From the NCBI GenBank assembly GCA_016783505.1, contig JADHWK010000007.1:5122-69121 (forward strand): 64,000 nt of DNA. The letters are read 5' to 3'. The position numbers and the translations under genes are program-made. Shown here piece by piece: positions 9,728-59,259 of the stretch (positions within the stretch are counted from its first letter, which is position 1; each line of letters opens with the position of its first letter). The notes below the pieces were generated by a model. That model did not search any database and was not told the DNA's origin. It saw only the letters and a program-made list of their open reading frames with translations. Source of the DNA: Candidatus Zhuqueibacterota bacterium. Lineage in GTDB: Bacteria > BS750m-G25.

Positions 9728-10198
9728 AAGGCTGAAGAGAGCATAAAAGGTAAAAAAGGTTTTACCCATAACAATTCAGGGGCAACATGAAAATATCGAA
9801 TATCGAACAACAAATTTCGAATGTTGTTGAAAATTCCAAATCACAATTTCCAAATCACAAACAAATCCTATCCCGAATATTCGGGAACCAAATGTTCAAA
9901 CCCAACCACGTTTTGGTCGTTCATACGGATGATCCGTTCTTCAGACCCGTCTGGGTAGGAGGCTACGCTCCCCGTTTGGGTCATTAAAATTTTGATCATT
10001 TGATATTATTTGCCTGCCCGGTCCGCCGTGCCCGGCTAGGGTAGAAGACTACGCTCCCAGGGGAATTTGGTGCTTCGGTCAGGCGCCCGACTGATGGAAT
10101 TTGGAATTTATCCCGAACCTTCGGGATGGAGCAATTATTTTGTAGCTAATTCTTAGAATTTCCGAGACGTTTAAATATCATTAATATGGACTCCGCCC
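9728..10198. other. Intergenic stretch with short palindromes, no convincing gene
   Basis: About 470 bases between the aminotransferase and serS. A 66-codon open frame at 9787-9987 is low-complexity (isn-, sq- and nq-rich) and I do not regard it as a gene. The stretch contains a perfect 16-base palindrome TCCCGAATATTCGGGA at 9871-9886, the near-copy TCCCGAACCTTCGGGA at 10111-10126, two related GTAG-ag-CTACGCTCCC segments (about 9956-9974 and 10042-10060), and one copy of the 20-bp GGCGCC repeat at 10075-10094. Confidence 0.6.
10075..10094 (+). repeat. 20-bp GGCGCC palindromic repeat, copy 1
   Basis: TCGGTCAGGCGCCCGACTGA, an interrupted palindrome centred on GGCGCC. Five other intergenic copies are at 18285, 37148, 41564, 44930 and 52131. 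All lie between genes, consistent with a REP-type element. Confidence 0.75.
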
Positions 10199-11467: not shown

Positions 11468-11515
11468 ATCATAACGTTATATGAAATTTACATCTTGCTA
11501 AGAAAGGGAAGTTAG

Positions 11516-18092: not shown

Positions 18093-18426
18093 CGTCTCGG
18101 AATTTCTAAAAAAGGGTTTTAAAGTAGATTAGAATGTCAGCAAATCAGTAAGAAGAAAATCAGATTATCAGTTTATCAGATTTTATCCTGTCCCCCTGGC
18201 CGTAGCCCGGCCACGGGCAGGCAAGATCGTTTCCCCCTGGCCGGGCAGGCAAGACCCTTCGGGCCGAATGTTCTGATCAACTGATCAGTCCGGCGCCTGA
18301 CGGATATTCCTCCAACTGACCCACCTGCCAAGGTTTAGCGGGCAGGTATCCTGATCACTTGATATACTTATTTCCATCATTTCACCATTCCATTGTTCCA
18401 GTTGCCCCGAAGGGGGTAAGTTCACT
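18093..18426. other. Repeat-bearing gap inside the hydrogenase gene cluster
   Basis: These 334 bases separate hydG and hydD, which usually abut. The gap contains CAGATTATCAGTTTATCAG-type repeats (about 18160-18180), two related GC-rich segments starting TCCCCCTGGCCG and ending GGCAGGCAAGA (about 18189-18252), and one inverted copy of the 20-bp GGCGCC repeat. No gene is visible. It looks like accumulated repeat insertions. Confidence 0.6.
18285..18304 (-). repeat. 20-bp GGCGCC palindromic repeat, copy 2 (reverse orientation)
   Basis: TCAGTCCGGCGCCTGACGGA. Its reverse complement aligns with the copies at 10075 and 37148, with two or three mismatches. Confidence 0.6.
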
Positions 18427-37047: not shown

Positions 37048-37147
37048 TTTATCATAAAGGTTTGGTGAAGTACGTTGTTTTCAAGTAAAGTGGGTATGGG
37101 GTAAAGAGCAACCGATTAGATTCCCTCCCCCTCAATGGGGGAGGGTT

Positions 37148-37167
37148 TCGGTCAGGCGCCCGACTGA
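37148..37167 (+). repeat. 20-bp GGCGCC palindromic repeat, copy 3
   Basis: TCGGTCAGGCGCCCGACTGA, identical to copy 1 at 10075. Confidence 0.8.
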
Positions 37168-37270
37168 AGGGAGGGGAACTAATAAGATTATCGAAATGAT
37201 AGGATAGAACGGGATTGACTGAATTATACAATTTATCAATAATCAATTTCAAAGTGAAAGGAGGTAAGAA

Positions 37271-41709: not shown

Positions 41710-41787
41710 AAATAGGAAACCAGCGATTTCAGGGTTGTGCCACAGGCCCGCCCGACCGACGCCCTAGAGAATTTTGGTGTAGATATT

Positions 41788-43940: not shown

Positions 43941-44909
43941 ATGCCTTTGACCCTGGAGGAATACGCCGCATCTCTGGAAGACAGGATCAGACCACGTCTG
44001 CCCCATATTACCCCTCCAGAGGATATTAAAGCCAAGCTAACCGCCTTACCCAATATGAAAGCTGTGTTGTGGGATGTGTACGGAACGTTAATGGCGGTAG
44101 ATACCGGGGATTTGGGGGAAACCCTGAAGCTGAAGCACAAGTTAATTCAGGCGTTTGAATTAACAATCCAAGAGTTTAACCTTAAGGACACCCTTCTAAA
44201 GCTTACCGAGAATCCGGCGGAATATCTTTTAAACCGGTATGTCCGGTTGATAGAGGAGGATCATCAGCGGGAGAGGGAAAGGGGAGTCCAGTTCCCCGAG
44301 GTGAAGATCGAAGCCATCTGGCAAGGGATTATTCGGGAGTTACAGACGGCGGGATATACCTATGATGGGGCGGCCTACGGGCCCCTGCCGGATTTTTCCA
44401 TAAAGATGGCCTACTTCTTCGATTACGTATTCCATGGTAAACGGTTTTACCCCGGAGTAAAAGAAACCCTGATCTCTCTCAAAAACCGTGGCCATAAGCA
44501 GGGGTTGATCTCCAACGCCCAGTTTTATACCCCCATTCAACTCGATCGCCTGCTTGCTGCCGGGACCTCCGATAAAGAGGCTGGCTTCCGTTTTCTATTC
44601 GACCGAGAATTAATCTGTTTTTCCTACCTGTTGGGGGTAGCCAAACCGAACCCCCTCATCTTTGAGAAGGCCGCCCTCACCCTCAGGAAATACAATATTG
44701 ACCCAGTGGAGACGGCTTATGTGGGCAATGATGTGTTCAATGACCTTTTGCCCGCCCATAAGCAGGGGTTTAAAACGGTCCTCTTCGCCGGGGATGGAAC
44801 GACCCTGAAGTTACGGAAGGACCATCCCTCGTGCCGGGATTTTATCCCGGATGCGATCATCAACAAAATTCCCCAAATTAAAGAGATTTTGGTTTTTTCC
44901 GGACTTTAG
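43941..44909 (+). CDS. HAD-superfamily hydrolase
   Basis: The 322-residue cytoplasmic phosphatase-like protein has all four HAD motifs in order: VLWDVYGTL near residue 36 (nucleophile Asp), LISNAQF near 190 (Ser/Asn position), the lysine in GVAKPNPLIFEKAA near 236, and YVGNDVFNDLLPAHKQGF near 260 (acidic pair). A long alpha-helical cap of about 140 residues sits between motifs 1 and 2, which is larger than in most relatives. Substrate unknown. The N-terminal 30 residues (TLEEYAASLEDRIRPRLPHI) are not part of the fold. It could supply the phosphatase step missing from the solute cluster 8 kb away, but no evidence places it there. Confidence 0.82.
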   Translation: MPLTLEEYAASLEDRIRPRLPHITPPEDIKAKLTALPNMKAVLWDVYGTLMAVDTGDLGETLKLKHKLIQAFELTIQEFNLKDTLLKLTENPAEYLLNRYVRLIEEDHQRERERGVQFPEVKIEAIWQGIIRELQTAGYTYDGAAYGPLPDFSIKMAYFFDYVFHGKRFYPGVKETLISLKNRGHKQGLISNAQFYTPIQLDRLLAAGTSDKEAGFRFLFDRELICFSYLLGVAKPNPLIFEKAALTLRKYNIDPVETAYVGNDVFNDLLPAHKQGFKTVLFAGDGTTLKLRKDHPSCRDFIPDAIINKIPQIKEILVFSGL

Positions 44910-44929
44910 TGGATAGAAATCAATTCCTG

Positions 44930-44949
44930 TCAGTCAGGCGCCTGACTGA
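44930..44949 (+). repeat. 20-bp GGCGCC palindromic repeat, copy 5 (perfect palindrome)
   Basis: TCAGTCAGGCGCCTGACTGA is identical to its own reverse complement. A second perfect stem ATTCCAAT-GA-ATTGGAAT follows at 44969-44986. Confidence 0.85.
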
Positions 44950-45044
44950 TCCTATTTTTCCTTTAGTAATTCCAATGAATTGGAATGGGCAATCCAAATT
45001 TAGAAGATTTCTCTTGATTTTTAGTAAATTTTATGTGATATTTA

Positions 45045-45899
45045 GTGATAGAAAAAGGGGGACACAAAGCGTTGAAAACAATTTATAGCATTGTCAACGT
45101 TCTGCTATTTTGTGGAACAACCCTTGCTGATATCATTCATGTTCCTGGCGATCAACTCACGATTCAAGCCGGGATTGATTCCGCTGCTGTAGGTGATACC
45201 GTGTTGGTGGATACGGGGCGGTATGTGGAACACATCAACTTTAATGGTAATGATATAGTTATCGGGTCACTGTTTCTGATTACTGGCGATACTTCCTACA
45301 TTACTCAGACGGTGATTGATGGAGATAGTAGTGGAAGTGTGGTGACGTTTGAGAATGGTGAAGATTCCACAGCGGTGTTAAGTGGTTTTACCATTACCAA
45401 TGGACAAGGTGGAGGCTCTTGGCCACATTACACTGCTGGTGGAATTACATGTAAATATTCTTCCAGCCCAAGTTTGGTGAATGTAACGGTGAGTGGGAAT
45501 ACGACATTTTGAGAAATGTCTGGAAGTGGAACTGGCGGTGAGATTATCTGCTAGGCTAATTCCAATCCCACATTGACCAATGTGATCATTATCAGGAATT
45601 ATGCTAATTACGGTGGCGGGATTTTATGTTGGAATAACTCCGGTCTGAGTTTGGTGAATACCATTCTCTGGAACGATTCGCCGCAGGAAATTTGTTTCAG
45701 CGAACAGGCTGCTTCGAATTCTATTACCATTGCCTATTCTGATGTGCAGGGCGGTGAAGCAGGAGTTGTGACTAACAACAACGGCACCGTGAACTGGCTG
45801 GAAGGGAATATTGATGCCGATCCCCTGTTTGCAGATCCTGATAATGGCGATTTTCACCTTCAAGAAGGCTCCCCTTGCATTTTAGATAAAAGGAGATAA
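45045..45899 (+). pseudogene. Broken right-handed beta-helix (pectate-lyase-like) surface protein
   Basis: A signal-peptide start (LKTIYSIVNVLLFCGTTLA) is followed by beta-helix rungs (TIQAGIDSAAVGDTVLVDTGRY, GFTITNGQGGG, TNVIIIRNYANYGGG, NTILWNDSP, ADPLFADPDNGDFHLQEGSPC). In-frame TGA at 45510-45512 and TAG at 45552-45554 interrupt it, and the frame closes at SPCILDKRR, where relatives continue with DAGDP. All pieces are in one frame, so no frameshift is needed. It is a decayed gene. Confidence 0.75.
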
Positions 45900-45903
45900 T
45901 AAT

Positions 45904-46470
45904 ATGTCATCTGATAAGCTTCAAGCAATCATTTCTGAATATCAAATGTTGAGAGAAGAGATCCAGCGGAGATCTACAGATCAGATGCATTGTGTTGTAG
46001 CTTCTGTTCTCTCAATCGGAGTTTTAATATCTCTCATTGCACAAAATCCCACTAAATATTCACCCGTTCTTATTGTAATTCCATGGATTTTAGCGGTTTT
46101 TGGAATAATTTGGTTGGATTGTAACTGCAGTATTTTCTTGCTAGGACAATATATAAGAGATGAAATTGAAGGGAAAAAATTACCTGCATTGTTGGAATCT
46201 TCTGAGATTAACTGGATAGGATGGCAACATTATATTTATAAAAAACGTGAAAAGTGGAAATTTCCATCATATATCGTATTTATTTTGCCATTCTTCTATT
46301 TTGTTATACCTTCCATCGTTTGTGTAATTGCTTATATAATTCTACGCTTATATGGTATTATTACGATGCCAAAAACAATTGAATGGTGCTTTTTAGCAAT
46401 TGGCATAATCTTTATTATAATATTATTATATAGTTGGTACAAATCATATGAAACCACAAAGGGAAGATAA
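45904..46470 (+). CDS. Hypothetical membrane protein with four helices
   Basis: This 188-residue protein is not recognised. AGGAGATAATA precedes ATG 45904. After a coiled-coil-prone N-terminus (LQAIISEYQMLREEIQRRS), four hydrophobic segments lie at about 30-46 (VASVLSIGVLISLIA), 52-75 (PVLIVIPWILAVFGIIWL), 121-150 (YIVFILPFFYFVIPSIVCV) and 160-180 (WCFLAIGIIFIIILLY). A cytosolic loop with KKREKWKF separates the pairs. AT-rich composition and location beside a pseudogene and IS element suggest acquisition. Function unknown. Confidence 0.6.
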   Translation: MSSDKLQAIISEYQMLREEIQRRSTDQMHCVVASVLSIGVLISLIAQNPTKYSPVLIVIPWILAVFGIIWLDCNCSIFLLGQYIRDEIEGKKLPALLESSEINWIGWQHYIYKKREKWKFPSYIVFILPFFYFVIPSIVCVIAYIILRLYGIITMPKTIEWCFLAIGIIFIIILLYSWYKSYETTKGR

Positions 46471-46541
46471 AATAAAAAAGGTGATATAGAACAAATAGAG
46501 AGTTATGTCAAATGAGAGCAGCACGGCACAGGCGCATGACA

Positions 46542-46610
46542 CAGCATAAAAGGTTCGTGCCTGATGGCAGTCACCTAAATTTTTGCTTCGTAAAAACTTC
46601 TTTTATGCTG
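46542..46610 (+). repeat. Structured element with 11-bp perfect inverted repeat
   Basis: CAGCATAAAAG (46542-46552) pairs with CTTTTATGCTG (46600-46610). The enclosed 47 bases hold two further small hairpins (TGCC-TGAT-GGCA, and TTTTTGC with GTAAAAA). It lies 340 bases downstream of the transposase gene end; it is perhaps a mobile-element end or a structured RNA. Confidence 0.5.
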
Positions 46611-46794
46611 GATCTATAAAAAGGTAAAAGTCAAGAGAAAAAAATCCCTCTACGCCCTGCCCGTAGGGTCATGGAATTAGTGTCATCTCGAAATTAGTCG
46701 GGATAGGGCTCTGAAACAAAGCAAAGATTTCCGGCTCTTTGATAATCTTTTCAGGGGGAATGCTGCGAACAGATTGGGTTTTGCCAAGTCGACT

Positions 46795-46906
46795 GACCGT
46801 ATATGTTACGAAGGGGTGTCATTCCCGCTTGCGCAGGATGACCATCAATCTATTCAACCTGCCGGAACGGTCTTGGGAACTAAACGGTTATCGTATGTAT
46901 ACGGTC
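46795..46906 (-). other. Structured noncoding region next to the IS110 transposase
   Basis: GACCGTATA (46795-46803) and TATACGGTC (46898-46906) form a 9-bp stem around about 94 bases, inside which GTCATTCCCGC and GCAGGATGAC (46818-46842) form another near-perfect hairpin. This lies 38 bases beyond the transposase stop, on its 3' side. Its position is where IS1111-group elements carry their guide (bridge) RNA region; this is inference. Confidence 0.4.
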
Positions 46907-46944
46907 GGCCCGAACCCGATAATAAACGTTAGAACGTGCCTCTT

Positions 46945-48001
46945 TCAGCCGTTATTCGCGCTGTTGTTCGTGATCCAGGCCGGCTTGATTTTAGTTCCCC
47001 GATACAGTTCATTGTTTCGCAGCATAAAGTACACGGCCTTAGCTAGTTTTCTGGCAGTGGCCACAATAGCCTTGCCGTGTCCTTTAGTGGCCTTTTTATA
47101 CTCGTAATAGGCCTTCAGTCCCGGATCTTTTCGAATGGCAACGAGGGCAGCCTCAATAAATGCCGTTCTCAGATACTTATTGGACTGTTTATTGATTTTT
47201 CCTTGATAGAGCTTATCTGCTGATCCCCGGGTGTTGACAGCCAATCCGGCGTATCGGAGAAGGCTCAATTCGTGGGAATCGATGGACCTTTACAATCTCG
47301 GCGATGATTGTCGAAGCATGTACTACTCCAACCCCGTCAATCGAGTTCAGAAGCGGATAGAAGGGGTGGTTAAGGATACGGTTTTTGATCATCTCATAGA
47401 GTTCGTCGATGAAAATGGAGAAGGTCTCGATGAGGTTAAGCTGCTTGGCGATGATCTTTCTGATGGGCTCGGGGAAATTCTGAGCTTCGATCCAGCGGAT
47501 ACCCTTGGAACCGAACACATATTTGTAGAGTCCTTGAAAATTGTACTTATCCAAGTAGGCACGGATGGTGTTTTTGAGGCTGGTGCGTAGGGTCACTAGC
47601 CGATATCGCTGGCGGTTGAGTTCCCGGAGGTGCCGGTACCAAATGTCAGGCACGTAACAGGTTGCAACCATTCCGGCTCTTGAAAGTTGAGCCAGCATAG
47701 CCGAGTCGTACTTGTCATTCTTAGCATGAACCGTTGCAATGGCTCGATTTAGAAAGGGGTTAGCCATTGTGAAGGGGATTCTCTTGAGATTGAGATAATC
47801 AGCGAGCCAGAAGTAGTTTCGAGTAGCCTCGAAGGTCACATGGATGGGTTCAGCGAAGGAATCGAATAAGACATCCAGTTCCTCGGGCCGATTGGGGATC
47901 TGATGGGTTCCCAGTTTTTTGCCGTCAGAATCGACTACAGAAAGAACAGAGTTCTTTTTGTGCAGATCCAGACCGATTTGATATTGAATTGAAGAATCCA
48001 T
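46945..48001 (-). mobile_element. IS110-family transposase, frameshifted
   Basis: The DEDD-type transposase gene starts on the minus strand at 48001 (AAAAGGAGGTCAAC before ATG). The N-terminal part shows IGLDLHKKNSVLSVVD (first Asp), VTFEATRNYFWL (Glu) and AKNDKYDSAMLAQL (Asps), the catalytic set of the RuvC-like domain. The C-terminal Transposase_20 domain begins at NSIDGVGVVHASTIIAE. Near 47268-47285 the frame breaks after HRFPR; the next frame continues with SLLRYAGLAVNTRGSADKLYQ and ends at 46945. About 350 residues would result without the break. Only one copy is seen and no terminal inverted repeats are expected in this family. Confidence 0.85.
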
Positions 48002-48128
48002 GTTGACCTCCTTTTGAGACTTGAGTTTATAACTAAGATACAAAATATTCTCTTTCGAGACTACCTTTTTATAATATAAACTTTTTACGACATTCATAAA
48101 TAGAAAACCCAAGGGGGGTGAGAGGATC

Positions 48129-50327
48129 ATGAAAAGGTTATTAATCGTTTCAAACAGGTTGCCAATTACTGTCGAAAAAAGGAAGGGTAATTTACTTTTT
48201 CGGCAGAGCACAGGAGGCCTGGCTACGGGACTAAGGTCATTCTATAGATCATATGACAGCATATGGATAGGATGGTCTGGAATTACATTAGATAAAATTA
48301 GTACCGAAGAAAAGAAGAGTATTGAAACAAAACTGATGTCTGAGTTTAACTGTTACCCGATTTTTCTCTCGCAAAATAACATTGAAAAGCACTACCATGG
48401 TTTTTGCAACAAAACTATCTGGCCCCTTTTCCACAGTTTCACCCAATATGCAGTTTACGAAAAGGGTTTATGGGAGTCTTACAGGCAGGCAAATAAACTT
48501 TTTTTTGATGCAATTATAGAAAAATCTGAGCCAGATGATATTATCTGGATACATGATTATCATTTAATGCTTCTTCCCAAACTTTTAAGAGAAAAATTAT
48601 CGAATGCTTCAATAGGTTTTTTCCTCCATATACCCTTCCCAACCTTTGAAATATTTCGCCTACTTCCATGGCGTAAGGAAATTTTAGAAGGACTCTTAGG
48701 AGCAGATGTTATAGGTTTTCACACCTATGATTATGCACGACATTTCCTCAGTAGTGTGCAGCGTTTGTTAGGATACGAATACAGTTGGGGTCAAATTACT
48801 GCCTATGATCGTATAATAAATACAGATGTATTTCCAATGGGAATAGACTATCAACTATTTTCAAAAGCTGCTCAGGATCCAGGAGTACAAAAAGAGGTGA
48901 CGAAGTTTCGTAAAAAACTTAGCGATCGTAAAATAATTTTATCAATAGACCGCCTAGACTATACAAAAGGGATACCCCAACGCTTAGAGGTTTTCGACAA
49001 CTTTTTGAAAAAAAACCCAGAGTATAAGGAGAAGGTGAGTCTTATTTTGGTTGCAGTTCCTTCACGCACACAGGTAGAACATTATAAGTTACTGAAAAAA
49101 CAGGTAGATGAACTTATCGGCAAGATTAATGGAGAACATGGAACGATTGGGTGGGTTCCCGTCCTGTATCTCTACCGCTCTCTACCCTTTTCCAGCCTTG
49201 CTGCTTTGTACAGTATTGCTGATATTGCCATTGTCACCCCTCTAAGAGATGGTATGAATCTCATAGCAAAAGAATATATCGCAACTAAGGCAGATGGAAA
49301 AGGGGTCTTGATATTAAGTGAAATGGCTGGAGCATCAAATGAGTTGGGTGAGGCAATCATAGTAAACCCTAACAACAGCAATGAGATGCTAGAGGCATTA
49401 GAAAAAGCCCTGATGATGCCGGAAAAGAAACAGATAGAACACAATAAGCCAATGCAAGAACGCCTCAAACGGTATAGTGTGGTGAGATGGGCAGAAGAGT
49501 TTATAGATAGATTGCTATACACCAAAAAACTTCAGAGTGAGATGTATACGAAGATGCTAACTTATGAAGTCAGATGGAAATTGGTTAGCGATTATCGTAA
49601 AAGCAAGAGGCGGCTTTTACTATTTGATTATGATGGAACTCTTGTCCCTTTTTTTGGTAAACCTGAAGAGGCAAAACCCAGCAATGAGATTTTAAAATTA
49701 CTCAAAAAACTCGCTGAAGATCAAAAAAATGAAGTGGTTCTCATAAGTGGACGTGACAAAGATACTTTAGAATCTTGGTTTGGCAACTTAAATCTGAGTC
49801 TTGTGGCTGAATATGGTGTGTGGCTAAAAGAATCTGTCCGTCCGCCAGGCGGGAAAGAGTGGGAATTAATAGAACCCCTGACTTCCGATTGGAAGGAAAA
49901 GATACGACCAATCCTTGAACTGCATGTAGATAGAACCCCTGGTTCTTTTATTGAAGAGAAAAATTTTTCCCTTGCCTGGCACTATCGAAAAGCCGATCTA
50001 GGATTAAGTTTAATGAGGGCAAGGGAGTTAATGGATAATCTCATAAATCTCACAGCCAATCTTAACCTTGAGGTTCTGGAGGGGAACAAAGTAATTGAAG
50101 TAAAGAATGCTGGTATAAACAAGAGCCGGGTTACGTTAAGATGGATTTCAAAGAAAAGTTGGGACTTTATCTTGGCGGTCGGTGACGATTGGACTGATGA
50201 AGATATTTTTGCTGTGTTACCGGATGAAGCTTATTCATTAAAAGTTGGTTTAACCCCTACGAAGGCAAAGTTCAATCTTAATTCAGTAATGGATGTAAGA
50301 TTATTACTAAAAGATCTGGGGAGGTGA
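48129..50327 (+). CDS. otsAB: Bifunctional trehalose-6-phosphate synthase/phosphatase (OtsA-OtsB fusion)
   Basis: This 732-residue enzyme makes trehalose in two steps. The GT20 synthase occupies about residues 1-465: RLLIVSNRLPIT, STGGLATGL, DIIWIHDYHLMLLP, GFFLHIPFPTFEIFRLLPWR, SIDRLDYTKGIPQRL and TPLRDGMNLIAKEYIA are all in place. The HAD phosphatase occupies about 495-732, with FDYDGTLVPFF (D500 and D502), LISGRD, EYGVWLK and AVGDDWTDEDIF. In E. coli these are two proteins. AT-rich composition and a neighbouring IS element suggest acquisition. It shares a transcript with treT (4-base gap). Confidence 0.95.
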   Translation: MKRLLIVSNRLPITVEKRKGNLLFRQSTGGLATGLRSFYRSYDSIWIGWSGITLDKISTEEKKSIETKLMSEFNCYPIFLSQNNIEKHYHGFCNKTIWPLFHSFTQYAVYEKGLWESYRQANKLFFDAIIEKSEPDDIIWIHDYHLMLLPKLLREKLSNASIGFFLHIPFPTFEIFRLLPWRKEILEGLLGADVIGFHTYDYARHFLSSVQRLLGYEYSWGQITAYDRIINTDVFPMGIDYQLFSKAAQDPGVQKEVTKFRKKLSDRKIILSIDRLDYTKGIPQRLEVFDNFLKKNPEYKEKVSLILVAVPSRTQVEHYKLLKKQVDELIGKINGEHGTIGWVPVLYLYRSLPFSSLAALYSIADIAIVTPLRDGMNLIAKEYIATKADGKGVLILSEMAGASNELGEAIIVNPNNSNEMLEALEKALMMPEKKQIEHNKPMQERLKRYSVVRWAEEFIDRLLYTKKLQSEMYTKMLTYEVRWKLVSDYRKSKRRLLLFDYDGTLVPFFGKPEEAKPSNEILKLLKKLAEDQKNEVVLISGRDKDTLESWFGNLNLSLVAEYGVWLKESVRPPGGKEWELIEPLTSDWKEKIRPILELHVDRTPGSFIEEKNFSLAWHYRKADLGLSLMRARELMDNLINLTANLNLEVLEGNKVIEVKNAGINKSRVTLRWISKKSWDFILAVGDDWTDEDIFAVLPDEAYSLKVGLTPTKAKFNLNSVMDVRLLLKDLGR

Positions 50328-50331
50328 CAAA

Positions 50332-51540
50332 ATGCATAGTTTGGAAGATTATTATGAAATTGTAGGTGATAGGGTTATATCTGAGATACACAAGAGGGCG
50401 AGAAGGCTTTTTGGAAAGCATATATTACACGTTAATTCTACATATCAGGGCGGCGGTGTTGCCGAAATGCTGGCATCCCTTGTGCCTCTCATGAATGACG
50501 TAGGGATTGACACCGGCTGGAGAATATTCCATGGAAACCCTGATTTTTTTACAATCACCAAAAAATTTCACAACGCACTTCAGGGCGATAAGATTAATTT
50601 GTCCGAGATAAAAAAACGCTTGTATTTCCTGGCCAATGAAGATTTTTCTGTCTATACACACTTAGATCACGATTATATAATCATCCACGATCCACAACCC
50701 CTACCTTTAATAAAATATTATAAGAAAGGTCAGCCATGGATTTGGCGGTGCCATGTAGATTTATCGCATCCCAATAAAGAACTATGGGAATTTCTTACAA
50801 GGTTCATTCTTAAGTATGACATGATTATTATTTCAAACGAAAAATATAAGAGAGAAGGCCTACCGGTAGAACAAAGGATTATTTATCCTGTTATCGATCC
50901 TCTATCTCCTAAAAATATGGAAATATCCGACACAACGATTTCAAAATATCTTAAAAAGTTTGGTGTTCCTACAGATAAACCGATCATAACTCAGATATCG
51001 AGATTTGATAAGTGGAAAGATCCGGTAGGTGTAACAGAAGCATTTAAAATTGTTAAGAAACATGTAGATTGTAGATTAGTATTATGTGGAAGTATGGCCA
51101 CCGATGACCCAGAAGGCTACCAGATTTATGAGAAGGTAAAAAGAAAGGTTGAAAAATTTATTGCCAATAACGATGTAATTCTTATAACTACCGAGAACAA
51201 CATTCTTGTAAACGCTTTACAGCGCAGTTCTGCAGTAATAATACAAAAGTCTATAAGGGAGGGCTTCGGGCTTACGGTAACTGAGGCGCTTTGGAAGGCA
51301 AGACCTGTCGTGGCTTCAAATGTAGGGGGGATTCCTCTTCAAATAAAGGATGGAGAAAATGGATTTTTGCTTGATCCTTACAACACAAAAGGTTTTGCTC
51401 AGATGATTGTTCAAATATTGCAAAATCCCAGACTGGCAGAGAAGATGGGTAAAGAAGGTAAGGAAATTGTCAGGAAAGAATTTCTCATAACAAGGCTTTT
51501 GTCAGACTATTTAGATTTATTTAATGATATGGAAAAATGA
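50332..51540 (+). CDS. treT: Trehalose glycosyltransferring synthase (TreT)
   Basis: The 402-residue GT4 enzyme joins NDP-glucose and glucose directly (reversibly) into trehalose. Family hallmarks are HVNSTYQGGGVAEML near residue 36, DTGWRIFHGNPDFF near 60, HDPQPLPLI near 118, IWRCHVDLSHPN near 136, and the C-terminal REGFGLTVTEALWKARPVV with SNVGGIPLQI. Best known from Thermococcus/Pyrococcus and some bacteria. GGGGAGGTGACAAA precedes the start. It provides a second trehalose route beside OtsAB, perhaps for degradation or for a different sugar donor. Confidence 0.9.
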   Translation: MHSLEDYYEIVGDRVISEIHKRARRLFGKHILHVNSTYQGGGVAEMLASLVPLMNDVGIDTGWRIFHGNPDFFTITKKFHNALQGDKINLSEIKKRLYFLANEDFSVYTHLDHDYIIIHDPQPLPLIKYYKKGQPWIWRCHVDLSHPNKELWEFLTRFILKYDMIIISNEKYKREGLPVEQRIIYPVIDPLSPKNMEISDTTISKYLKKFGVPTDKPIITQISRFDKWKDPVGVTEAFKIVKKHVDCRLVLCGSMATDDPEGYQIYEKVKRKVEKFIANNDVILITTENNILVNALQRSSAVIIQKSIREGFGLTVTEALWKARPVVASNVGGIPLQIKDGENGFLLDPYNTKGFAQMIVQILQNPRLAEKMGKEGKEIVRKEFLITRLLSDYLDLFNDMEK

Positions 51541-51739
51541 ACGACGTATAACAGTGGATAAGAGAGGAATCAAAGATTTCTCTAAATTGTCTTCTCTAAC
51601 CTCTTTTATTCACAACCCGTTATATGAAATTGCGGTTCTTTAAATGCTTTTCAAAGGTAGTGGGGTTAAATAAGTAGAAGAGGCAAGCAAGAAATTTATG
51701 ATATTTTACTCCCACCTCTCTTCTACTGTTTATACCAGT

Positions 51740-51973
51740 GTAAAGGACAGCGGTGTCCTATTAACTATACGTTATCTTTATGAGCCTCGACGTCGTCGTA
51801 GCACCGAATAGGCAATCTGGGAAGATATTTTACAAGAGTTCTCCAAAGGTGCAGATATAGATTTCGCATATCCTACACAACGGTTCTATAATAATCGACT
51901 CGAGGTAAAGGCTGGGATTAGACCTTTCTCCGGGGAAGAGAATACAAAAACATCCGGAAATAAGCCAAAGTAG
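51740..51973 (+). pseudogene. C-terminal remnant of a mechanosensitive channel (MscS family)
   Basis: The frame reads VKDSGVLLTIRYLYEPRRRR, then STE-TAG (51809-51811), then AIWEDILQEFSKGADIDFAY and PTQRFYNN before a stop at 51971-51973. -SGVLLT-RYL-EPRRRR and DI-FAYPTQR are the cytoplasmic beta-domain ends of YbdG/MscS-like channels, where Gln normally stands at the TAG. Nothing of the membrane domain is left. The 693-base gap that contains it also has a 51673-51727 inverted repeat (AGTAGAAGAGG / CCTCTCTTCTACT) and no other gene. Confidence 0.65.
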
Positions 51974-52130
51974 CTCACAATATAACTGTTAAGACGTCAG
52001 TCTTTTATAAAATCCTAAGGATTAAATCCAACGGATTAAACTGAAAAAATGAGAGGCATTCAGTCATTTTGAAAATACACCCACTACTAGTTTGTGCTAC
52101 AGTAGATGAAAACAATGGATTTATGTTATT

Positions 52131-52150
52131 CGGTCAGGCGCCCGATTGAT
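52131..52150 (+). repeat. 20-bp GGCGCC palindromic repeat, copy 6
   Basis: TCGGTCAGGCGCCCGATTGA, one base different from copies 1 and 3. It lies 84 bases before the first solute-cluster glycosyltransferase. Confidence 0.75.
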
Positions 52151-52233
52151 TTCGATATTCGAATTTCGGATTTACTTATGATTACCACAAAAACCCTGAA
52201 AGAGGGGAAATTTTAACCTAATGTCCTGAGCCA

Positions 52234-53985
52234 ATGAGCCGTTCAAGGATTCTTCACTTTGGGATCTGGCACTATCACCTGAAACCGGGGGGGGTGCGGA
52301 CCGTCATCGAGAACACCCTAAAGGCGCTGACCTACCTAAATGATTACCACGGGGTGTCCGTGGAAATTTTCAGCGGGGATGACAGGGGAGTAGAATTCGA
52401 TAAGGATAGGGTGGAAGAAGGATCGAGGTCGGGGCTCTCCATCACCGTCAGGACCATCCGTATTCCTGAATTGAGTTATTCTGACCGCCTCTACGAAAGC
52501 AGGGGACAACTTAAGGCCACCGCCAAGGGAATAAGGGATACTATGATAAGGAGTATGTCCCTGAATCACTGTGACCAGGATAATCCCTATATTTTAAACT
52601 CCCATAATCTGGCCCTGGGAAAGAACCCTGCCGCCTCCTGGGCGTTGAAATTATTGGCGGAATGGGCTTTAGTCCATAAAAAACCCCTTTGGGTCCTTAA
52701 TCAGGTCCATGATTTTGCCGAAAATAACCGCCCCGACCGCCTTCGGGTGCTGCAAAATTGTACGGGAACCAGGGATAATCGGTTTGCCGCCGGACTGATC
52801 TATCCCAACCTGCCCGGGGTGCTTTACGCCGTTCTTACCAGGGCTGACCGGGATAATCTAATCCAGGTGGGACTGGACCCCCAAAGGCTTTTCGTCCTTC
52901 CTAATTCAATAAATATTCTGCCTTTTGAAAGTGGGCTTTCCCAGACGGAACTGGAAGTTAAAGGGGAACTCCTCCGCCGAATAAGCCGTTATGCCAGAGA
53001 ACAGGACTTTGTCTTCGATCCAGAATCCCCCATTTTGCTCTCCCCCATGAAGATCATGCGCAGAAAAAACTCCCTGGAATCGGTGTTGATTTTAATCCTC
53101 CTGAACGCCCTGGGAGAAGGATATCAGTTGCTGTTGTCTCTGGGCGCTCAGTCACCCCATGACTTAAAATACGGAAATCACTTAAAGCAATTCATTAGGA
53201 AATATCGGTTGCCGATAACGGTTGGATTCGGGGACGAATTTATTCTGTCTGGCAAGCAGAGACTGGTGAGGAACGGCCGCATCCTTCAATTTTCCCTGTT
53301 TGACCTTTACGCAATTTCCACGGGTGTGATTACCACTTCGATTATGGAAGGATTCGGGCTGGGTTTTCTGGAGGGCTGGCTGTTGGGTCTTCCGGTGGTG
53401 GGCCGCAGGATCCCGGGGGTCATCGAGGAATTTGAGCGGGCCGGTTTGGATTTCGGTCATCTTTACGATAGGGTGGAGGTTAGGGTTGAATGGCTCGATG
53501 GGGGGCTTGCTGGGCTGATAGAGATATTTCGCCTGAAATTAAACAAGCAGCGGCGGCAGCAGGGCCTGGCCCCGTTAATCCCGGCTGAGATTGAGAGGAG
53601 ATTCCGGGCGAGAAAGATATTTATTTCAGCGGGGAGGAAATGCATTGACTTTACTGAATTGGATCCCCCCAAGCAGTTGGCACTTATGGCAAAGATTATG
53701 AAAAATAGGAGGCTTTTGGACGAATTGTTGTATCTGAACCAAAAGATTAAATCTATACCAGAGCTCGTGGGCGGCGGCTCAAGAAAGTTGATAAAAAGAA
53801 ATCGAGAGGCTATAGTTAAAAATTACTCAACCCGAGCAAAAGCGAATAGGTTAAAGCAGATTATTCGCCAGGGTAATAAATTGTACCGAGAACCTATGGA
53901 AGCCAGGCAGGCACAAAAGGAAATTTCCAACCGGGGGCTCATCGAAAAATACCTTTCTGTTGAGCAAATAAACCTTTTATATTAA
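52234..53985 (+). CDS. Glycosyltransferase, GT-B fold, solute-cluster paralogue A
   Basis: This 583-residue enzyme is a diverged GT4-like protein. The N-terminal half opens LHFGIWHYHLKPGGVRTVIENTL (acceptor-side loop). The C-terminal half holds SPMKIMRRKNSLESV, TVGFGDEF, TTSIMEGFGLGFLEGWLLGLPVVGRRIPG and a long helical tail (about residues 440-583) not seen in most GT4 enzymes. It is clearly paralogous to the 57751 gene: both share the G-D-----L then ATTS---EGFG--F-E-W-L---V-GR-IP pattern and the long extra insertion. It is the first gene of a five-gene run with glycerate kinase and probably glycosylates a glycerate-based acceptor (inference). Start: ATG 52234. Confidence 0.7.
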   Translation: MSRSRILHFGIWHYHLKPGGVRTVIENTLKALTYLNDYHGVSVEIFSGDDRGVEFDKDRVEEGSRSGLSITVRTIRIPELSYSDRLYESRGQLKATAKGIRDTMIRSMSLNHCDQDNPYILNSHNLALGKNPAASWALKLLAEWALVHKKPLWVLNQVHDFAENNRPDRLRVLQNCTGTRDNRFAAGLIYPNLPGVLYAVLTRADRDNLIQVGLDPQRLFVLPNSINILPFESGLSQTELEVKGELLRRISRYAREQDFVFDPESPILLSPMKIMRRKNSLESVLILILLNALGEGYQLLLSLGAQSPHDLKYGNHLKQFIRKYRLPITVGFGDEFILSGKQRLVRNGRILQFSLFDLYAISTGVITTSIMEGFGLGFLEGWLLGLPVVGRRIPGVIEEFERAGLDFGHLYDRVEVRVEWLDGGLAGLIEIFRLKLNKQRRQQGLAPLIPAEIERRFRARKIFISAGRKCIDFTELDPPKQLALMAKIMKNRRLLDELLYLNQKIKSIPELVGGGSRKLIKRNREAIVKNYSTRAKANRLKQIIRQGNKLYREPMEARQAQKEISNRGLIEKYLSVEQINLLY

Positions 53986-53999
53986 CAGGAGATACCTAA

Positions 54000-55223
54000 A
54001 TGGGTGATTTCTATCAACACGGGGTGGTGGCCACCCTGCATCGGTTGGGCAGGCAGAAGTTGGAGGAATTGGAGAAAAAGCTGATGAAACTTTCCGAGCG
54101 CCGTGCTATAGTCCTGATTCTTCCGATCATCCCAAGGGATCTTGAGGCTGAGCCGTTTATGAAGATCGTCGAGGAATTAAGAGGGGCTAATTATCTCCAT
54201 GAGATTGTGATTGCCCTGGGGAGGACGACCCAAAAGGAGCATTTTATTGAAGCCAAGAAGAAAGTTTCGGATTTGCCCCAGAAGGTCACTATTCTCTGGA
54301 CCAGCGGGTCGAGGCTGGATGATCTCTATCACCTCCTAAAGATTAACCACTTAGAAGTGGGACCCGATGGGAAGGGACGGTCTACCTGGGTGGCTTACGG
54401 CTACGTTCTGTCTAAAGATGAATGCGGTATAATCGTCCAACATGACTGCGACATCGTGAATTACAACAGGGAGCTTTTGGCCCGGCTTTGCTATCCGCTG
54501 GTTAACCAGGACCTGGATTTCAAGTTTTGCAAGGGTTATTATCCCCGGGTCACCGACCGCTTTTACGGAAGGGTTACCCGGCTATTTGTTACCCCTTTGA
54601 TCAGGTCATTGATGAAGATGGTTGGATACCATCCGTTTTTAGTTTACTTGGATAACTTCCGTTATCCCCTCTCCGGGGAGTTCTCAATGACCGTAGATCT
54701 GGCCCGCACCAACCGGGTGCCCGGGGACTGGGGGTTGGAAATCGGAACATTGGCGGAAATTTATCGCAACTGCCATCTGAAGCGGGTCTGTCAGGTTGAT
54801 CTCGCCGATACCTATGAGCATAAACATCAGCCCCTGTCTAATCATGACCCGAGCAAAGGATTGATGAAGATGAGCATTGACATAGGGAAGGTCTTTTTCC
54901 GAACCCTCAGTAGCGAGGGTGTGATATTTACCGATGAATTCTTTAAAAACCTGACCGCCGCTTTCCTGCGCACGGCTCAGGACACCCTGAAGCAATACGA
55001 GGCCGATGCCGCCATCAATGGGCTCTATTTCGACCGGCATCAGGAAGGGCAGGCGGTAGAAACCTTTACTAGAAGTATCCAGTTCGCCAGTGAGGAATTT
55101 TTAAAGGACCCGCTAGGGGTGCCCCAGATCCCCAACTGGAGCCGGGTAATATCGGCGATTCCTGAGATTTTATACCTTCTGGCAGATGCCGTAGAAGAGG
55201 ATAGTAGGAAAATCAGAGCGTGA
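54000..55223 (+). CDS. GpgS-like glucosyl-3-phosphoglycerate synthase (GT81-type)
   Basis: The 407-residue GT-A enzyme has HDCDIVNYNRELLARL near residue 150 (D149-C-D151, the metal/NDP-binding triad) and then the characteristic segment FRYPLSGEFSMTVDLAR near 222 and GDWGLEIGTLAEIYRN near 242 with QVDLADTYEHKHQPLS near 262. These match glucosyl-3-phosphoglycerate synthases (RPL-GE----, EIGLL---Y, QVDLG--RAHR-QPL), which use NDP-glucose and 3-phosphoglycerate. The first 70 residues (KLEELEKKLMKLSERRAIVLILP) are longer than typical. It overlaps nothing, 14 bases after gene A. It would commit the pathway to glucosylglycerate. Confidence 0.75.
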   Translation: MGDFYQHGVVATLHRLGRQKLEELEKKLMKLSERRAIVLILPIIPRDLEAEPFMKIVEELRGANYLHEIVIALGRTTQKEHFIEAKKKVSDLPQKVTILWTSGSRLDDLYHLLKINHLEVGPDGKGRSTWVAYGYVLSKDECGIIVQHDCDIVNYNRELLARLCYPLVNQDLDFKFCKGYYPRVTDRFYGRVTRLFVTPLIRSLMKMVGYHPFLVYLDNFRYPLSGEFSMTVDLARTNRVPGDWGLEIGTLAEIYRNCHLKRVCQVDLADTYEHKHQPLSNHDPSKGLMKMSIDIGKVFFRTLSSEGVIFTDEFFKNLTAAFLRTAQDTLKQYEADAAINGLYFDRHQEGQAVETFTRSIQFASEEFLKDPLGVPQIPNWSRVISAIPEILYLLADAVEEDSRKIRA

Positions 55224-55235
55224 GGAGGAAAAACG

Positions 55236-56477
55236 ATGGAACAATCTGCCCTTAAGAAAGCAGACTGGGAAGCGATTGAAAGGCTTGGTCGGGCTGACCT
55301 GCTGGTGGGTATCCCCAGCTTTAACAATGCCGCCACCATCGGGCATGTGGTGGTGGCGGCGGTCGGGGGACTTGCCCGCTATTTCCCCAATCGGAAGGGG
55401 ATCATTATCAACTCCGATGGGGGTTCTACAGATGGCACCCAGGGAGTCTTTCAGGGTGTTCCAATACAGATCGGACTTAAGTCTCATACCTTGACTTACC
55501 AGGGTATACCGGGGAAAGGAACCGCCTTCAAAGCTTTGTTCGAGATCGGGATGAGGCTGGGGGTAAAAGCCGTGGTGGTGGTGGATTCAGATTTAAGGAG
55601 TATTACCCCAGAATGGATCCAGAAGATGGGCTCCCCGGTGCTGGAGGGGGGATATGGGTTGGTGACACCCCTCTATTCCCGGCATAAATACGACGGAACC
55701 ATTACCAACGCCATCGCCTACCCCTTGACCCGGGCCTTATACGGCCTCCGGGTGCGCCAGCCCATCGGGGGGGATTTCGGTTTATCATCCGAATTGGTGG
55801 GACGACTGCTGGAGATGGATGTCTGGGATACCGATGTGGCCCGTTTCGGCATTGACATCTTCCTGACAACTACAGCCATCTACATGGGGATAAAAATAGG
55901 TCAGGCCCCTTTAGGGGCCAAAATTCACGACGTCAAGGACCCGGCGGCGACCCTGGGACCCATGTTCCGCCAGGTGGTGGGCACCCTGTTCGGGTTAATG
56001 AAGACTTATCAAGGGCGTTGGCCTGAAATCACCGGAAGCACACCAGTTGACCTACTGGGGTCGGTAGAAGAGGCCGAGCCAGAACCTGTAAAAGTGACCC
56101 TTCCGGCCCTGACAAAGAATTTCCGGGATGGCTTCGGGGATCATTTCCCCTTCTACCAGGAGTTTATTTCCCCCGAAATCCTGAAGGAATTGGAAAAACT
56201 GCGAGCCTCCCCCGAGGATCTCTTCCATTTCCCCGCTTCCCTCTGGGCCAAAATAGTCTATGAATTTGCGGTGGCCTACAATCAGGGTTGCCATCCACCG
56301 ACCCAGGTGGTGGACGCCCTGACCCCCTTATATTTTGGCCGCACTGCCTCTTTTGTAATGGAAACCCGGGAACTGTCCACCCAGGAAGCGGAGAGGGTAA
56401 TCGAAAATGTGGCGGAGCAATTTGAAAAGGAAAAGAAATATTTAATTAAAAGATGGTCGCAGAGGATTAAAAAATGA
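55236..56477 (+). CDS. Glycosyltransferase family 2-like, solute cluster
   Basis: This 413-residue GT-A enzyme shows LLVGIPSFNNAATIGHVV near residue 20, DGGSTDGTQ near 59, PGKGTAFKALFEIG near 89, VVVDSDLRSITPEWI with D117-S-D119, and QPIGGDFGLSSELVGRL near 172. The PGKG-x(3)AL--, DSD and QP-GG-- pattern is like mannosylglycerate synthase (GT78) and GpgS-type enzymes. A C-terminal helical domain of about 120 residues with PPTQVVDALTPLYFGRTASFV ends it. It follows the GpgS-like gene by 12 bases and overlaps the glycerate kinase start (ATGA). It likely adds a second hexose (mannose or glucose) to the product, by analogy only. Confidence 0.65.
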   Translation: MEQSALKKADWEAIERLGRADLLVGIPSFNNAATIGHVVVAAVGGLARYFPNRKGIIINSDGGSTDGTQGVFQGVPIQIGLKSHTLTYQGIPGKGTAFKALFEIGMRLGVKAVVVVDSDLRSITPEWIQKMGSPVLEGGYGLVTPLYSRHKYDGTITNAIAYPLTRALYGLRVRQPIGGDFGLSSELVGRLLEMDVWDTDVARFGIDIFLTTTAIYMGIKIGQAPLGAKIHDVKDPAATLGPMFRQVVGTLFGLMKTYQGRWPEITGSTPVDLLGSVEEAEPEPVKVTLPALTKNFRDGFGDHFPFYQEFISPEILKELEKLRASPEDLFHFPASLWAKIVYEFAVAYNQGCHPPTQVVDALTPLYFGRTASFVMETRELSTQEAERVIENVAEQFEKEKKYLIKRWSQRIKK

Positions 56478-57613
56478 AGATTGTGGTGGCTCCCAATGCC
56501 TTTAAAGAGAGCCTGACCGCCCTTGAAGCGGCCAATTTTATCGAAGAGGGGATTAAAAGGGTTTTTCCTGAATGTGAGGTGGTAAAAGTCCCCATGGCCG
56601 ACGGGGGGGATGGGACGGCCGCGGCTTTAGTAGGGGCTACGGGGGGACGGATTCTCGCAGAAGAGGTAAATGGTCCCCTTGGGGAGAAGGTGAAGGCAGA
56701 TTATGGTCTACTGGGGGATGGGGAAACGGCGGTGGTGGAGATGGCGGCGGCCTCGGGACTGAGGCTAATTCCTTCCAAAAAAAGAAACCCTTTGATAACT
56801 ACCACCTACGGGACCGGTGAACTTATTAAAGCATGCCTGGGTCAGGGGGCCAAAAAGGTAATTGTGGGCATCGGGGGGAGCGCCACCGTGGACGGGGGAG
56901 CCGGGATGGCCCAGGCCTTAGGAGCCAGACTGTTGGACCGAGACGGAAAGCAAATTCCCTTCGGGGGCGGCGGGTTGGGTCAATTGGATCACATTGATGT
57001 AAGCGGAATGGACGAACGAATAAATCAGATTGAGTGCCTCGTTGCCAGCGATGTAGATAATCCCCTTACTGGCCCTTCGGGGGCAGCGGCGGTCTACGGA
57101 CCCCAGAAGGGGGCTACACAGGAGGAAGTGGTTCAATTGGATAGGAATTTATCCCATTACGCTGATGTAATCAGACGGGATTTGGGAATTAATGTCAAGG
57201 ATGTCCCCGGGGCTGGGGCCGCCGGGGGGCTGGGGGCGGGTCTCTTAGCCTTTTTTGGGGCCCAGCTTAAGTCAGGCATCGAGATCGTCATCCAAGCCTC
57301 GGGTCTTAAAGAAAAGCTTCAGGGGGCGGACCTTATCATCACGGGCGAGGGAAAAATTGACTCCCAGACCGCCCACGGGAAGGCGGTGGCCGGGGTGGCC
57401 AAGCTGGCGAAAAGAGAAAGGGTCCCCGTCGTTGCGGTGGGGGGGAGCCTCACGGAAGATGCCAGGGCCGTTCACCCCATCGGGGTGGATGCCCTCTTCA
57501 GCACGATTCCCCGTCCTGTTTCTCTTGATCGAGCCATGGAAAGAGCAGGCCCATTCTTAGCCGATGCCGTAGAAGAAATTATGCGATTATGGGTGTGTTG
57601 CCGAAAATCATAG
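56474..57613 (+). CDS. garK: Glycerate 2-kinase (GarK/GlxK family)
   Basis: The 379-residue kinase phosphorylates glycerate to 2-phosphoglycerate. MKIVVAPNAFKESLTALEAA, PMADGGDGTAAALV, GTGELIKACLGQGAKKVIVGIGGSATVDGGAGMAQALG, GP-GAAAVYGPQKGA and VPGAGAAGGLGAGLLAFFGA are all conserved. It overlaps the upstream glycosyltransferase by four bases, so it is in the same operon. Here it would interconvert glycerate with the phosphoglycerate pool, either activating the acceptor or recycling glycerate from broken-down solute. The C-terminus has an odd short tail (LWVCCRKS). Confidence 0.92.
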   Translation: MKIVVAPNAFKESLTALEAANFIEEGIKRVFPECEVVKVPMADGGDGTAAALVGATGGRILAEEVNGPLGEKVKADYGLLGDGETAVVEMAAASGLRLIPSKKRNPLITTTYGTGELIKACLGQGAKKVIVGIGGSATVDGGAGMAQALGARLLDRDGKQIPFGGGGLGQLDHIDVSGMDERINQIECLVASDVDNPLTGPSGAAAVYGPQKGATQEEVVQLDRNLSHYADVIRRDLGINVKDVPGAGAAGGLGAGLLAFFGAQLKSGIEIVIQASGLKEKLQGADLIITGEGKIDSQTAHGKAVAGVAKLAKRERVPVVAVGGSLTEDARAVHPIGVDALFSTIPRPVSLDRAMERAGPFLADAVEEIMRLWVCCRKS

Positions 57614-57750
57614 GAGAAAAGGTCACCACCGGAGAAAGGAAGACGGCGGAGTAAGCCCTTCATGGCTGTGAAACCAGGATTCATCAGGTCACGGGCCTGA
57701 AGGCATTATTCCCGAGGGGTTACAAAATTTTAAATGGGGAGCAATTAGAA

Positions 57751-59259
57751 ATGAAAGGGAAACTGCATCTAGCGATCGGCCATTATTCCATAGGTTATCG
57801 GGACGGAGTTAACACCGTATTGGTCCGCACGGTGCGGGGCCTGAAGGATATTGACCCCTCCCTAAAGATCACCGTGTTCGGAAAGCCCAGCCCGTTGATC
57901 GAGTCCTTCCTTCCCTGGGATAGGGGGAAGCTGGATTATGTGGGGATGGAGGAGTTGGATACCCATCACACCATGCCGGGACTGGGAGGGATGGGGATCG
58001 AGGAACAGGACGCCCATGATTATGTCTGGCTGGGCACCAAGATCGCCAAGAAGTTCGGGAAATTGTTTGCGGATGTGGATGTAGTAATAATGGAAAACCT
58101 GTCCATCGGGGTGCACCCGGCGGTCACCTACGCCTTCTTCCTGACGGCCATGGACAATTATAACCGCTCCACCACCCGGAGGTTCATCTCCCGGGTTCAC
58201 GATTTCGCCCAGCAGCGGCCCCGGAATTTCCAGAACATGAAGAAGTTTCATGATTATCGTTTCGGTTATGTCCCCGACTGGCATGAAGTTCTCTATCCTA
58301 ATATGCCCAACGTGGACTACATCTCCATCAACACAGCTGATATGGATCGCCTGCTGGATCACGGGATCGACCGAGACCGTATCTCTTATATTCCCAACTG
58401 CATTGACGATTCCCTGCTGGTGCCCGATGATAAAGGTCAAGAACTGCGGCGGTTACTCCAGAACAAAGAAGGCATTGAAGAGGATACCTGTCTCATCTTC
58501 TATCCGGTGCGGTGCATTCCCCGCAAGAACGTGGAGGAGGCCATTTTTATCACCATGCTGCTGAACAATTTGACAAAGATGGATTTTTATAAGTCGAAAT
58601 ATAATCTGATGCCTAAATATCACCTCCTGGTCAGTCTGGAAGCAACCACCGGTGATGAGAAGAAGTATACCGATACCCTGAAGGATTTCGTTAAAAAGCA
58701 TCGCCTTCCGGTTACCATTGGTCTTGGGGATTGGGTGGCCCTGAAGAGGGAATATGATATTGTCGACGGGGAGAGACGCCTGACAAAGTTCGGGGTGGCC
58801 GACGCCTACGCCATGGCTGATGTGGTCATCACCACCAGCTATCTGGAGGGTTTTGGTTTTGTTTTTATCGAGCCCTGGGTATTGGACAGATGTGTTATTG
58901 GTAGAAATATTCCCCAGGTCACCCCTGACTTCCAGCGGGCCGGAATGCATTTAGATCACTTCTACACCGTTCTCAGGGTGGACGGAAGAGATTTTAAAGA
59001 GTTGGGGATGGACCAGGGACCCAATAAGGCTCTACAGGTTCGCTTGGCTGAGATTTTAAAGCTGGGTAGTCAAGATTATGTCGAAAAAATCATGGCCCAA
59101 AATGTGGTCCCATTGAAAGGAACCCTGAGGATCATGCATACCAATAAAGGCGTTTCGGTGCGGAAGACCAATAAAAAGGTAGTCATGGATAACTATTCCC
59201 AAAGTAGGATTTCTGAACAGGTGTATCGGGTCATCCGGGGATGGGAGGGGGAAAAATGA
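57751..59259 (+). CDS. Glycosyltransferase, GT-B fold, solute-cluster paralogue B
   Basis: This 502-residue enzyme is paralogous to the 52234 gene. The N-terminus AIGHYSIGYRDGVNTVLVRTV matches the acceptor-side start of GT4 relatives. YPVRCIPRKNVEEAIF near residue 250, TIGLGDWVALKREYD near 322 and TTSYLEGFGFVFIEPWVLDRC-IGRNIPQVTPDF near 362 are the core of the donor domain. The same insertion as in gene A (YRL-L-RKNP-E type) is present. It closes the cluster 137 bases after the kinase, with GGGGAGC upstream. The two paralogues probably act on successive sugars or alternative acceptors. Confidence 0.7.
   Translation: MKGKLHLAIGHYSIGYRDGVNTVLVRTVRGLKDIDPSLKITVFGKPSPLIESFLPWDRGKLDYVGMEELDTHHTMPGLGGMGIEEQDAHDYVWLGTKIAKKFGKLFADVDVVIMENLSIGVHPAVTYAFFLTAMDNYNRSTTRRFISRVHDFAQQRPRNFQNMKKFHDYRFGYVPDWHEVLYPNMPNVDYISINTADMDRLLDHGIDRDRISYIPNCIDDSLLVPDDKGQELRRLLQNKEGIEEDTCLIFYPVRCIPRKNVEEAIFITMLLNNLTKMDFYKSKYNLMPKYHLLVSLEATTGDEKKYTDTLKDFVKKHRLPVTIGLGDWVALKREYDIVDGERRLTKFGVADAYAMADVVITTSYLEGFGFVFIEPWVLDRCVIGRNIPQVTPDFQRAGMHLDHFYTVLRVDGRDFKELGMDQGPNKALQVRLAEILKLGSQDYVEKIMAQNVVPLKGTLRIMHTNKGVSVRKTNKKVVMDNYSQSRISEQVYRVIRGWEGEK

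Follow-up and report, generated by a model that had tools for sequence, protein, structure and literature searches.

Few organisms are known to make sugar-glycerates, a small family of compatible solutes. The GpgS/GpgP pathway combines a glycosyltransferase of family GT81, GpgS, with a HAD-IIB phosphatase, GpgP, and in Persephonella the gene for a further enzyme, the glucosylglycerate synthase Ggs, lies in an operon with both. In Petrotoga and Thermotoga, mannosylglucosylglycerate (MGG) is made through the enzyme pairs GpgS/MggA and Ggs/MggS, and Petrotoga mobilis is said to possess two alternative routes to it (a title cited in PMC3694870). Ggs (EC 2.4.1.268) provides a single-step glucosylglycerate pathway in Persephonella marina (2007 work, cited via PMC3899277), and MGG is a proven solute, its level varying with salt and nitrogen (PMC3694870). 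Here we describe a cluster of five genes in a 64,000-nucleotide stretch of DNA (the window) from a Candidatus Zhuqueibacterota bacterium (contig JADHWK010000007.1, positions 5,122 to 69,121). Its source is a 2.5 Mb draft genome, 59.9% complete and the sole representative of its phylum among the genomes compared. On balance, the cluster probably makes a compatible solute, an oligosaccharide of glucosylglycerate that would be MGG-like or one sugar longer. Of this scheme, the first enzyme, the glucosylglycerate that is its likely intermediate and the class of solute are already known; what is new is the two clades of GT-B glycosyltransferases.

The cluster consists of the following genes:

52234-53985, + strand: gene 1, long GT-B glycosyltransferase, GT4-like, 583 residues (EX7E motif intact; partnered by a HAD and GpgS in relatives)
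54000-55223, + strand: gene 2, GpgS-type glucosyl-3-phosphoglycerate synthase, archaeal/methanogen-type GT81, 407 residues (NF040724, motifs, tree)
55236-56477, + strand: gene 3, putative Ggs-like glucosylglycerate synthase of a GT81-related clade, 413 residues (linked or fused to GpgS in relatives; Arg replaced by Thr)
56474-57613, + strand: gene 4, glycerate kinase, 379 residues (PF02595/TIGR00045)
57751-59259, + strand: gene 5, short GT-B glycosyltransferase, GT4-like, 502 residues (EX7E motif intact; MggS-related but separate)

The first-pass annotation, made from the DNA letters, had described five genes in one direction with these sizes and junctions, and open reading frame calling on the window confirms them: all five frames start with ATG on the + strand, with junctions of +14, +12, -4 and +137 bases between genes 1-2, 2-3, 3-4 and 4-5. 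Genes 2 and 5 are each preceded by a sequence resembling a ribosome site. Also upheld are the paralogy it assigned to the two long GT-B enzymes, a GpgS-like GT81 enzyme and a glycerate kinase, for which the values are given below. With two GT81-like and two GT-B enzymes the set resembles that of the MGG pathway, from which it differs in the added glycerate kinase. It shares a GpgS-type enzyme with the GpgS/GpgP pathway but no GpgP/MPGP-type HAD-IIB enzyme was found here, the linked HAD being of type HAD-IA with the motif DxYGT.

Evidence for a functional unit comes from conserved linkage. Gene content and order, orthology, linkage and motif differences are read directly from the genomes compared. 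In genome G023, from another phylum, the order is HAD, long GT-B, GpgS, gene 3 and short GT-B, with identities to the window of 35% (long GT-B), 60% (GpgS), 56% (gene 3) and 42% (short GT-B). Because this order of four transferases recurs in another phylum, the cluster is not a product of chance. Genome G171, of the same family as G023, has a run of HAD, long GT-B and GpgS, and G380 combines a bacterial-type GpgS with a GT-B that falls on a long branch within the long clade, a second, MggS-like GT-B and a member of the same HAD family. In G031 the short GT-B lies beside a bacterial-type GpgS. A genome scan with gene 5 alone returned no match; an alignment of three sequences was needed as query, and with it the short GT-B was found in bins of Desulfobacterales, Sedimentisphaerales, Nitrospinota and Spirochaetota. 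All ten genomes found to have a short GT-B (that of the window, G023, G031 and G486-G492) have GpgS or gene 3, eight of them also have the long GT-B, and the HAD is present in all but G031 and G489. In six genomes (G023, G171, G486, G488, G491 and G492) the HAD gene touches or overlaps that of a long GT-B, and GpgS is the neighbour of the long GT-B in four loci, those of the window, G023, G171 and G487. Searches of plasmids gave distant matches only.

The genes around these loci in relatives encode mechanosensitive channels, CLC proteins, Na+/H+ and Na+/Ca2+ exchangers, antiporters, a TrkA-type channel and enzymes of trehalose synthesis. A role as compatible solute is favoured because these neighbours fit osmotic adaptation and MGG is known to act as one. 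In the loci read, the GT-B pair had neither capsule nor lipid genes beside it. The first-pass annotation had proposed an oligosaccharide-glycerate osmolyte or a lipid/polymer primer, the osmolyte interpretation to be abandoned if the GT-B paralogues consistently sat with lipid or capsule genes and never with GpgS-like and kinase genes. Since GpgS or gene 3 accompanies these paralogues in the genomes that have them, and the loci read showed no adjoining capsule or lipid genes, the osmolyte interpretation survives, and a glucosylglycerate-based pathway extended by further glycosyltransferases, probably for a compatible solute, is supported; the three or four sugars that the annotation gave the product are a guess.

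Gene 2 is assigned as a GpgS-type enzyme by full-length similarity, motifs and tree. It matches the GpgS model NF040724 over residues 3-404 (353.6 bits, E 1e-105), below the strict cut-off of 700, and model NF010496 with 63.6 bits against a cut-off of 262. The motifs GKG, DxD, GRVT and PLSGE and the metal-binding His are all present and conserved in 31 relatives. GRVT serves the acceptor and PL(S/A)GE the choice of glucose over mannose (PMC2581804, PMC7185993); GRVT is retained in GpgS of both bacterial and archaeal type. A GpgS-like match in G442 was rejected as a membrane-type GT2. The gene 2 type of GpgS is absent from the 103 Thermotogota genomes searched, where the search had no positive control, and the GpgS/MggA locus of Petrotoga was not found among the genomes compared. 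A family of 392-400 residues abuts GpgS in three genomes (L165 5360-6538, L195 9834-11036, L196 9763-10944) and is M28-peptidase-like in two of the three; a peptidase-like gene unrelated to that family precedes the HAD in G023.

Gene 4 is clearly predicted to be a glycerate kinase, with scores above both cut-offs (PF02595, 513.8 bits against 23.3; TIGR00045, 505.4 bits against 168.5). At locus L204 a kinase of the gene 4 type lies 3 bases before a gene 3 homologue. Two unrelated families of glycerate kinase, DUF4147/MOFRL and PF02595, adjoin gene 3 homologues (L058 4146-5441, L055 7466-8845, window 56474-57613, L204 576-1727), which suggests a convergent link to free glycerate.

Gene 3 is most likely a glucosylglycerate synthase (Ggs) that forms a separate GT81-like clade. 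Its match to the GpgS profile is weak (E 2e-14), as is that to mannosylglycerate synthase (E 9e-4), so that the "mannosylglycerate-synthase-like pattern" earlier attributed to it is a fair description of a faint resemblance. Genes 2 and 3 both match the catalytic domain of the Rhodothermus marinus mannosylglycerate synthase (GT78) weakly, but at 16.9 and 19.2 bits they do not reach the cut-off of 27 for PF21969. In GpgS of Mycobacterium tuberculosis the phosphate of the acceptor is contacted by R185 (PMC7185993), and the carboxylate is bound by Val186/Thr187 in GpgS and by Ile138/Thr139 in the glycerate-using MgS (PMC2581804). Gene 3 has GTIT where GpgS has GRVT: the equivalent of Arg185 is not retained, its position being Thr in 53 of 54 sequences and never Arg, whereas the carboxylate-binding Thr is kept. 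With the phosphate-binding Arg replaced and the Ile-Thr pair of MgS preserved, glycerate without phosphate is the favoured acceptor. A single-sequence structure model of gene 3 had a pLDDT (predicted local distance difference test) of 41, too low for use.

The distribution of the gene 3 family is consistent with this assignment. In a survey sampled widely across bacterial diversity, strong members occur in 39 of 386 genomes from many phyla, and further in 65 of 103 Thermotogota genomes. Sixteen of the 26 genomes with GpgS also have gene 3, compared with 39 of 386 overall (Fisher 1e-11, a value that ignores kinship). Partners were assigned by BLAST on mechanically chosen open reading frames; within 6 kb of 37 gene 3 loci these are GpgS (12), an MscS channel (7), glycerate kinase of two unrelated families (6), a GT-B (6), TreT/OtsAB-like enzymes (6) and an MPGP/GpgP-type phosphatase (5). 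GpgS and gene 3 are fused into proteins of 733-755 residues in G019, G167 and G306 (L079 7438-9642, L085 7270-9471, L067 7866-10133). As with the Ggs of Persephonella marina, gene 3 is GT81-like and lies beside GpgS, and at L058 the order is GpgS, MPGP/GpgP-type HAD phosphatase, gene 3. Among Thermotogota, the gene 3 homologue of G474 overlaps MggS by 4 bases, a further likeness to the MGG pathway, and the loci also carry an alpha-mannosidase (GH38), an RpiR regulator and an ABC transporter.

Genes 1 and 5 are paralogues, 38% identical over 296 residues (E 1e-40). All their Pfam matches are sub-threshold, and no solved relative of gene 5 was found by sequence. The EX7E motif, identified by reading, is intact in both (E372/E380 and E366/E374). 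Both are classed as retaining GT4-type GT-B enzymes, with support for the fold coming from the model of gene 5. This AlphaFold model, built from nine sequences, has a mean pLDDT of 86 and matches BshA (Z 26.3, 352 residues, root mean square deviation 3.2) and methylmannose polysaccharide mannosyltransferase (Z 24.9, 344 residues, deviation 3.4), with many GT4 enzymes scoring alike. The likeness extends to retaining GT4 enzymes such as BshA, HepE, TreT and sucrose-phosphate synthase, but identity to gene 5 is only 11-15%. In the tree, the long and short clades, with ten sequences each, are sisters at 100/99; the eleven MggS and MggS-like sequences fall outside both. Tree and NF041101 score together speak against either being MggS; as a control, NF041101 matches Thermotoga maritima and its cut-off is passed in G474 and G407.

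The phosphatase that a pathway starting at GpgS might use has a candidate upstream of the cluster in the window:

43941-44909, + strand: HAD-IA hydrolase, 322 residues, candidate phosphatase of the cluster (orthologue of the HAD before the long GT-B in relatives)

In one search of the 59.9% complete draft, this gene was the best match to the HAD of G023 (44%, E 1e-65). It is 42-44% identical to the HADs that directly precede the long GT-B in G023 and G171, and on this similarity it is placed as the orthologue of the HAD preceding the cluster in relatives. It may be the phosphatase of the cluster. Against the GpgP/MPGP models TIGR01486 and TIGR02461 it gave no match, and it hit other HAD subfamilies only, all below cut-off. 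The first-pass annotation had found no dedicated phosphatase; this is true of 52234-59259, though perhaps not of the window. Its suggestion that dephosphorylation takes a new route, or that the product keeps its phosphate, is weakened by the HAD in the window and beside the cluster in relatives. Further, the glucosylglycerate branch through gene 3 may need no phosphatase, because gene 3 looks glycerate-using. A metallophosphoesterase of 729 residues with PQQ/BamB-type propeller repeats is encoded at 41737-43926 of the window, 14 bases before the HAD gene; it has no counterpart beside the HAD of G023.

From these assignments we infer substrates, sugars, linkages, an order of steps and a physiological role as follows. 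GpgS (gene 2) would form glucosyl-3-phosphoglycerate from glucose and 3-phosphoglycerate. To this still phosphorylated intermediate a second sugar would be added by the long GT-B (gene 1), and the HAD hydrolase at 43941-44909 would remove the phosphate. Gene 3, the Ggs-like enzyme, would in parallel attach glucose directly to D-glycerate, with the glycerate kinase (gene 4) setting the level of free glycerate or recycling it. The short GT-B (gene 5) would extend either the dephosphorylated glucosylglycerate or the longer product by one sugar, so that the outcome would be mannosylglucosylglycerate-like or one sugar longer. A bolder version, in which the long and short GT-B clades and the DxYGT HAD are new enzyme families, the HAD being a phosphatase with an unusual motif, and make an undescribed sugar-glycerate solute of three or more hexoses in Spirochaetota, Desulfobacterota, Planctomycetota and at least two little-known phyla, is possible but doubtful.

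The survey yields a gene set that can be tested: GpgS, the probable Ggs found in about one tenth of the 386 genomes, the GT-B-linked HAD and the two uncharacterised GT-B clades. It predicts sugar-glycerate solutes in lineages that are not known to make them, and offers candidates for the extension steps of solutes of the MGG type.

Several points weigh against the proposed pathway. All enzyme activities are predictions. The two GT-Bs are far from reaching the MggS model NF041101 (12.8 bits for gene 1 and 50.6 for gene 5, cut-off 640) and form clades of their own outside that of MggS. The expected partners are absent within 6 kb at 18 of the 37 gene 3 loci. Motif I of the HAD is DxYGT rather than DxDxT in all ten members, and since Tyr replaces the general-acid Asp, the protein could be something other than a phosphatase. 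The short GT-B of Spirochaetota and Desulfobacterota lies with a different GT4 enzyme, away from GpgS, and its acceptor could therefore differ; in Spirochaetota a GH130-like gene also accompanies this pair. That gene, of 490 residues, is convergent to the GT4 and short GT-B pair (L014, L017 and L018, about 10500-12000, - strand), and may encode an enzyme acting on the product or a GH130-like mannosyltransferase.

The product could instead be ordinary MGG, with gene 1 as the equivalent of MggA acting on glucosyl-3-phosphoglycerate, gene 5 as that of MggS acting on glucosylglycerate, and the two-route set of Petrotoga brought together in a single operon; a third sugar would then not be added. 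The two routes of Petrotoga mobilis fit this explanation, as do the pairing of gene 1 with GpgS and the HAD, the position of gene 5 after the Ggs/kinase pair, and the fact that MggS is the best NCBIfam match of gene 5 (E 1e-13). However, a separate MggS-like GT-B is present besides the long type in G023, G380, G488 and G491, and the tree puts MggS outside both GT-B clades of the window. We regard ordinary MGG as a rather unlikely product.

Glucosylglycerate could also be the primer of a longer intracellular glucan or lipopolysaccharide. Mycobacterial methylglucose lipopolysaccharide is started by GpgS and GpgP, after which a further glucose is added (PMC4555173), and the structural matches of gene 5 include methylmannose polysaccharide mannosyltransferase, though this does not stand out there from other GT4 enzymes. 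Yet the run lacks any methyltransferase, acyltransferase, branching enzyme or glycogen-synthase-like gene, and relatives have ion channels, antiporters and trehalose genes as neighbours, which makes a priming role decidedly improbable. That the GT-B pair serves envelope glycan synthesis and lies near GpgS incidentally, as the separate GT4/short GT-B pairs of Spirochaetota and Desulfobacterota might suggest, is very hard to credit given that every short-GT-B genome found has GpgS or gene 3, that the long GT-B adjoins GpgS in the four loci named above, and that no capsule or lipid gene was found beside the pair in the loci read.

For the predicted sugar-glycerate cluster, the distance between HAD and long GT-B calls for an account, since it is 23 bases in G023, 30 bases in G171 and 7.3 kb in the window. 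The intervening stretch contains:

44910-52233, no strand assigned: apparent low-GC inserted segment between the HAD and long GT-B genes (contrast in third-position GC, frameshifted IS110)
48129-50327, + strand: OtsAB, fused trehalose-6-phosphate synthase/phosphatase (NF011071, 1033 bits, cut-off 634)
50332-51540, + strand: TreT-like trehalose glycosyltransferring synthase (Pfam TreT_GT1, E 1e-59; NF041139, 425 bits, below the cut-off of 775)

GC content at third codon positions is 0.27-0.36 in the genes of this segment, 0.61 in the HAD, and 0.57-0.63 in the HAD and cassette together. An IS110 transposase at 47213-48211 (- strand) has its C-terminal part in another frame, and is either a degraded copy or an assembly error. 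Given the low third-position GC, the frameshifted IS110 and the adjacency of HAD and GT-B in G023 and G171, insertion of the 7.3-kb segment with its trehalose genes is the simplest account, though trehalose genes also occur near gene 3 at other loci. No Rfam families were found in the window. A palindromic repeat of about 22 bases, GTCAGGCGCCTGACTGAT, occurs five times (10074-10095, 18284-18305, 37147-37168, 44929-44950 and 52133-52150), with nine strand matches against 0.08 expected, and one copy lies on either side of the low-GC segment.

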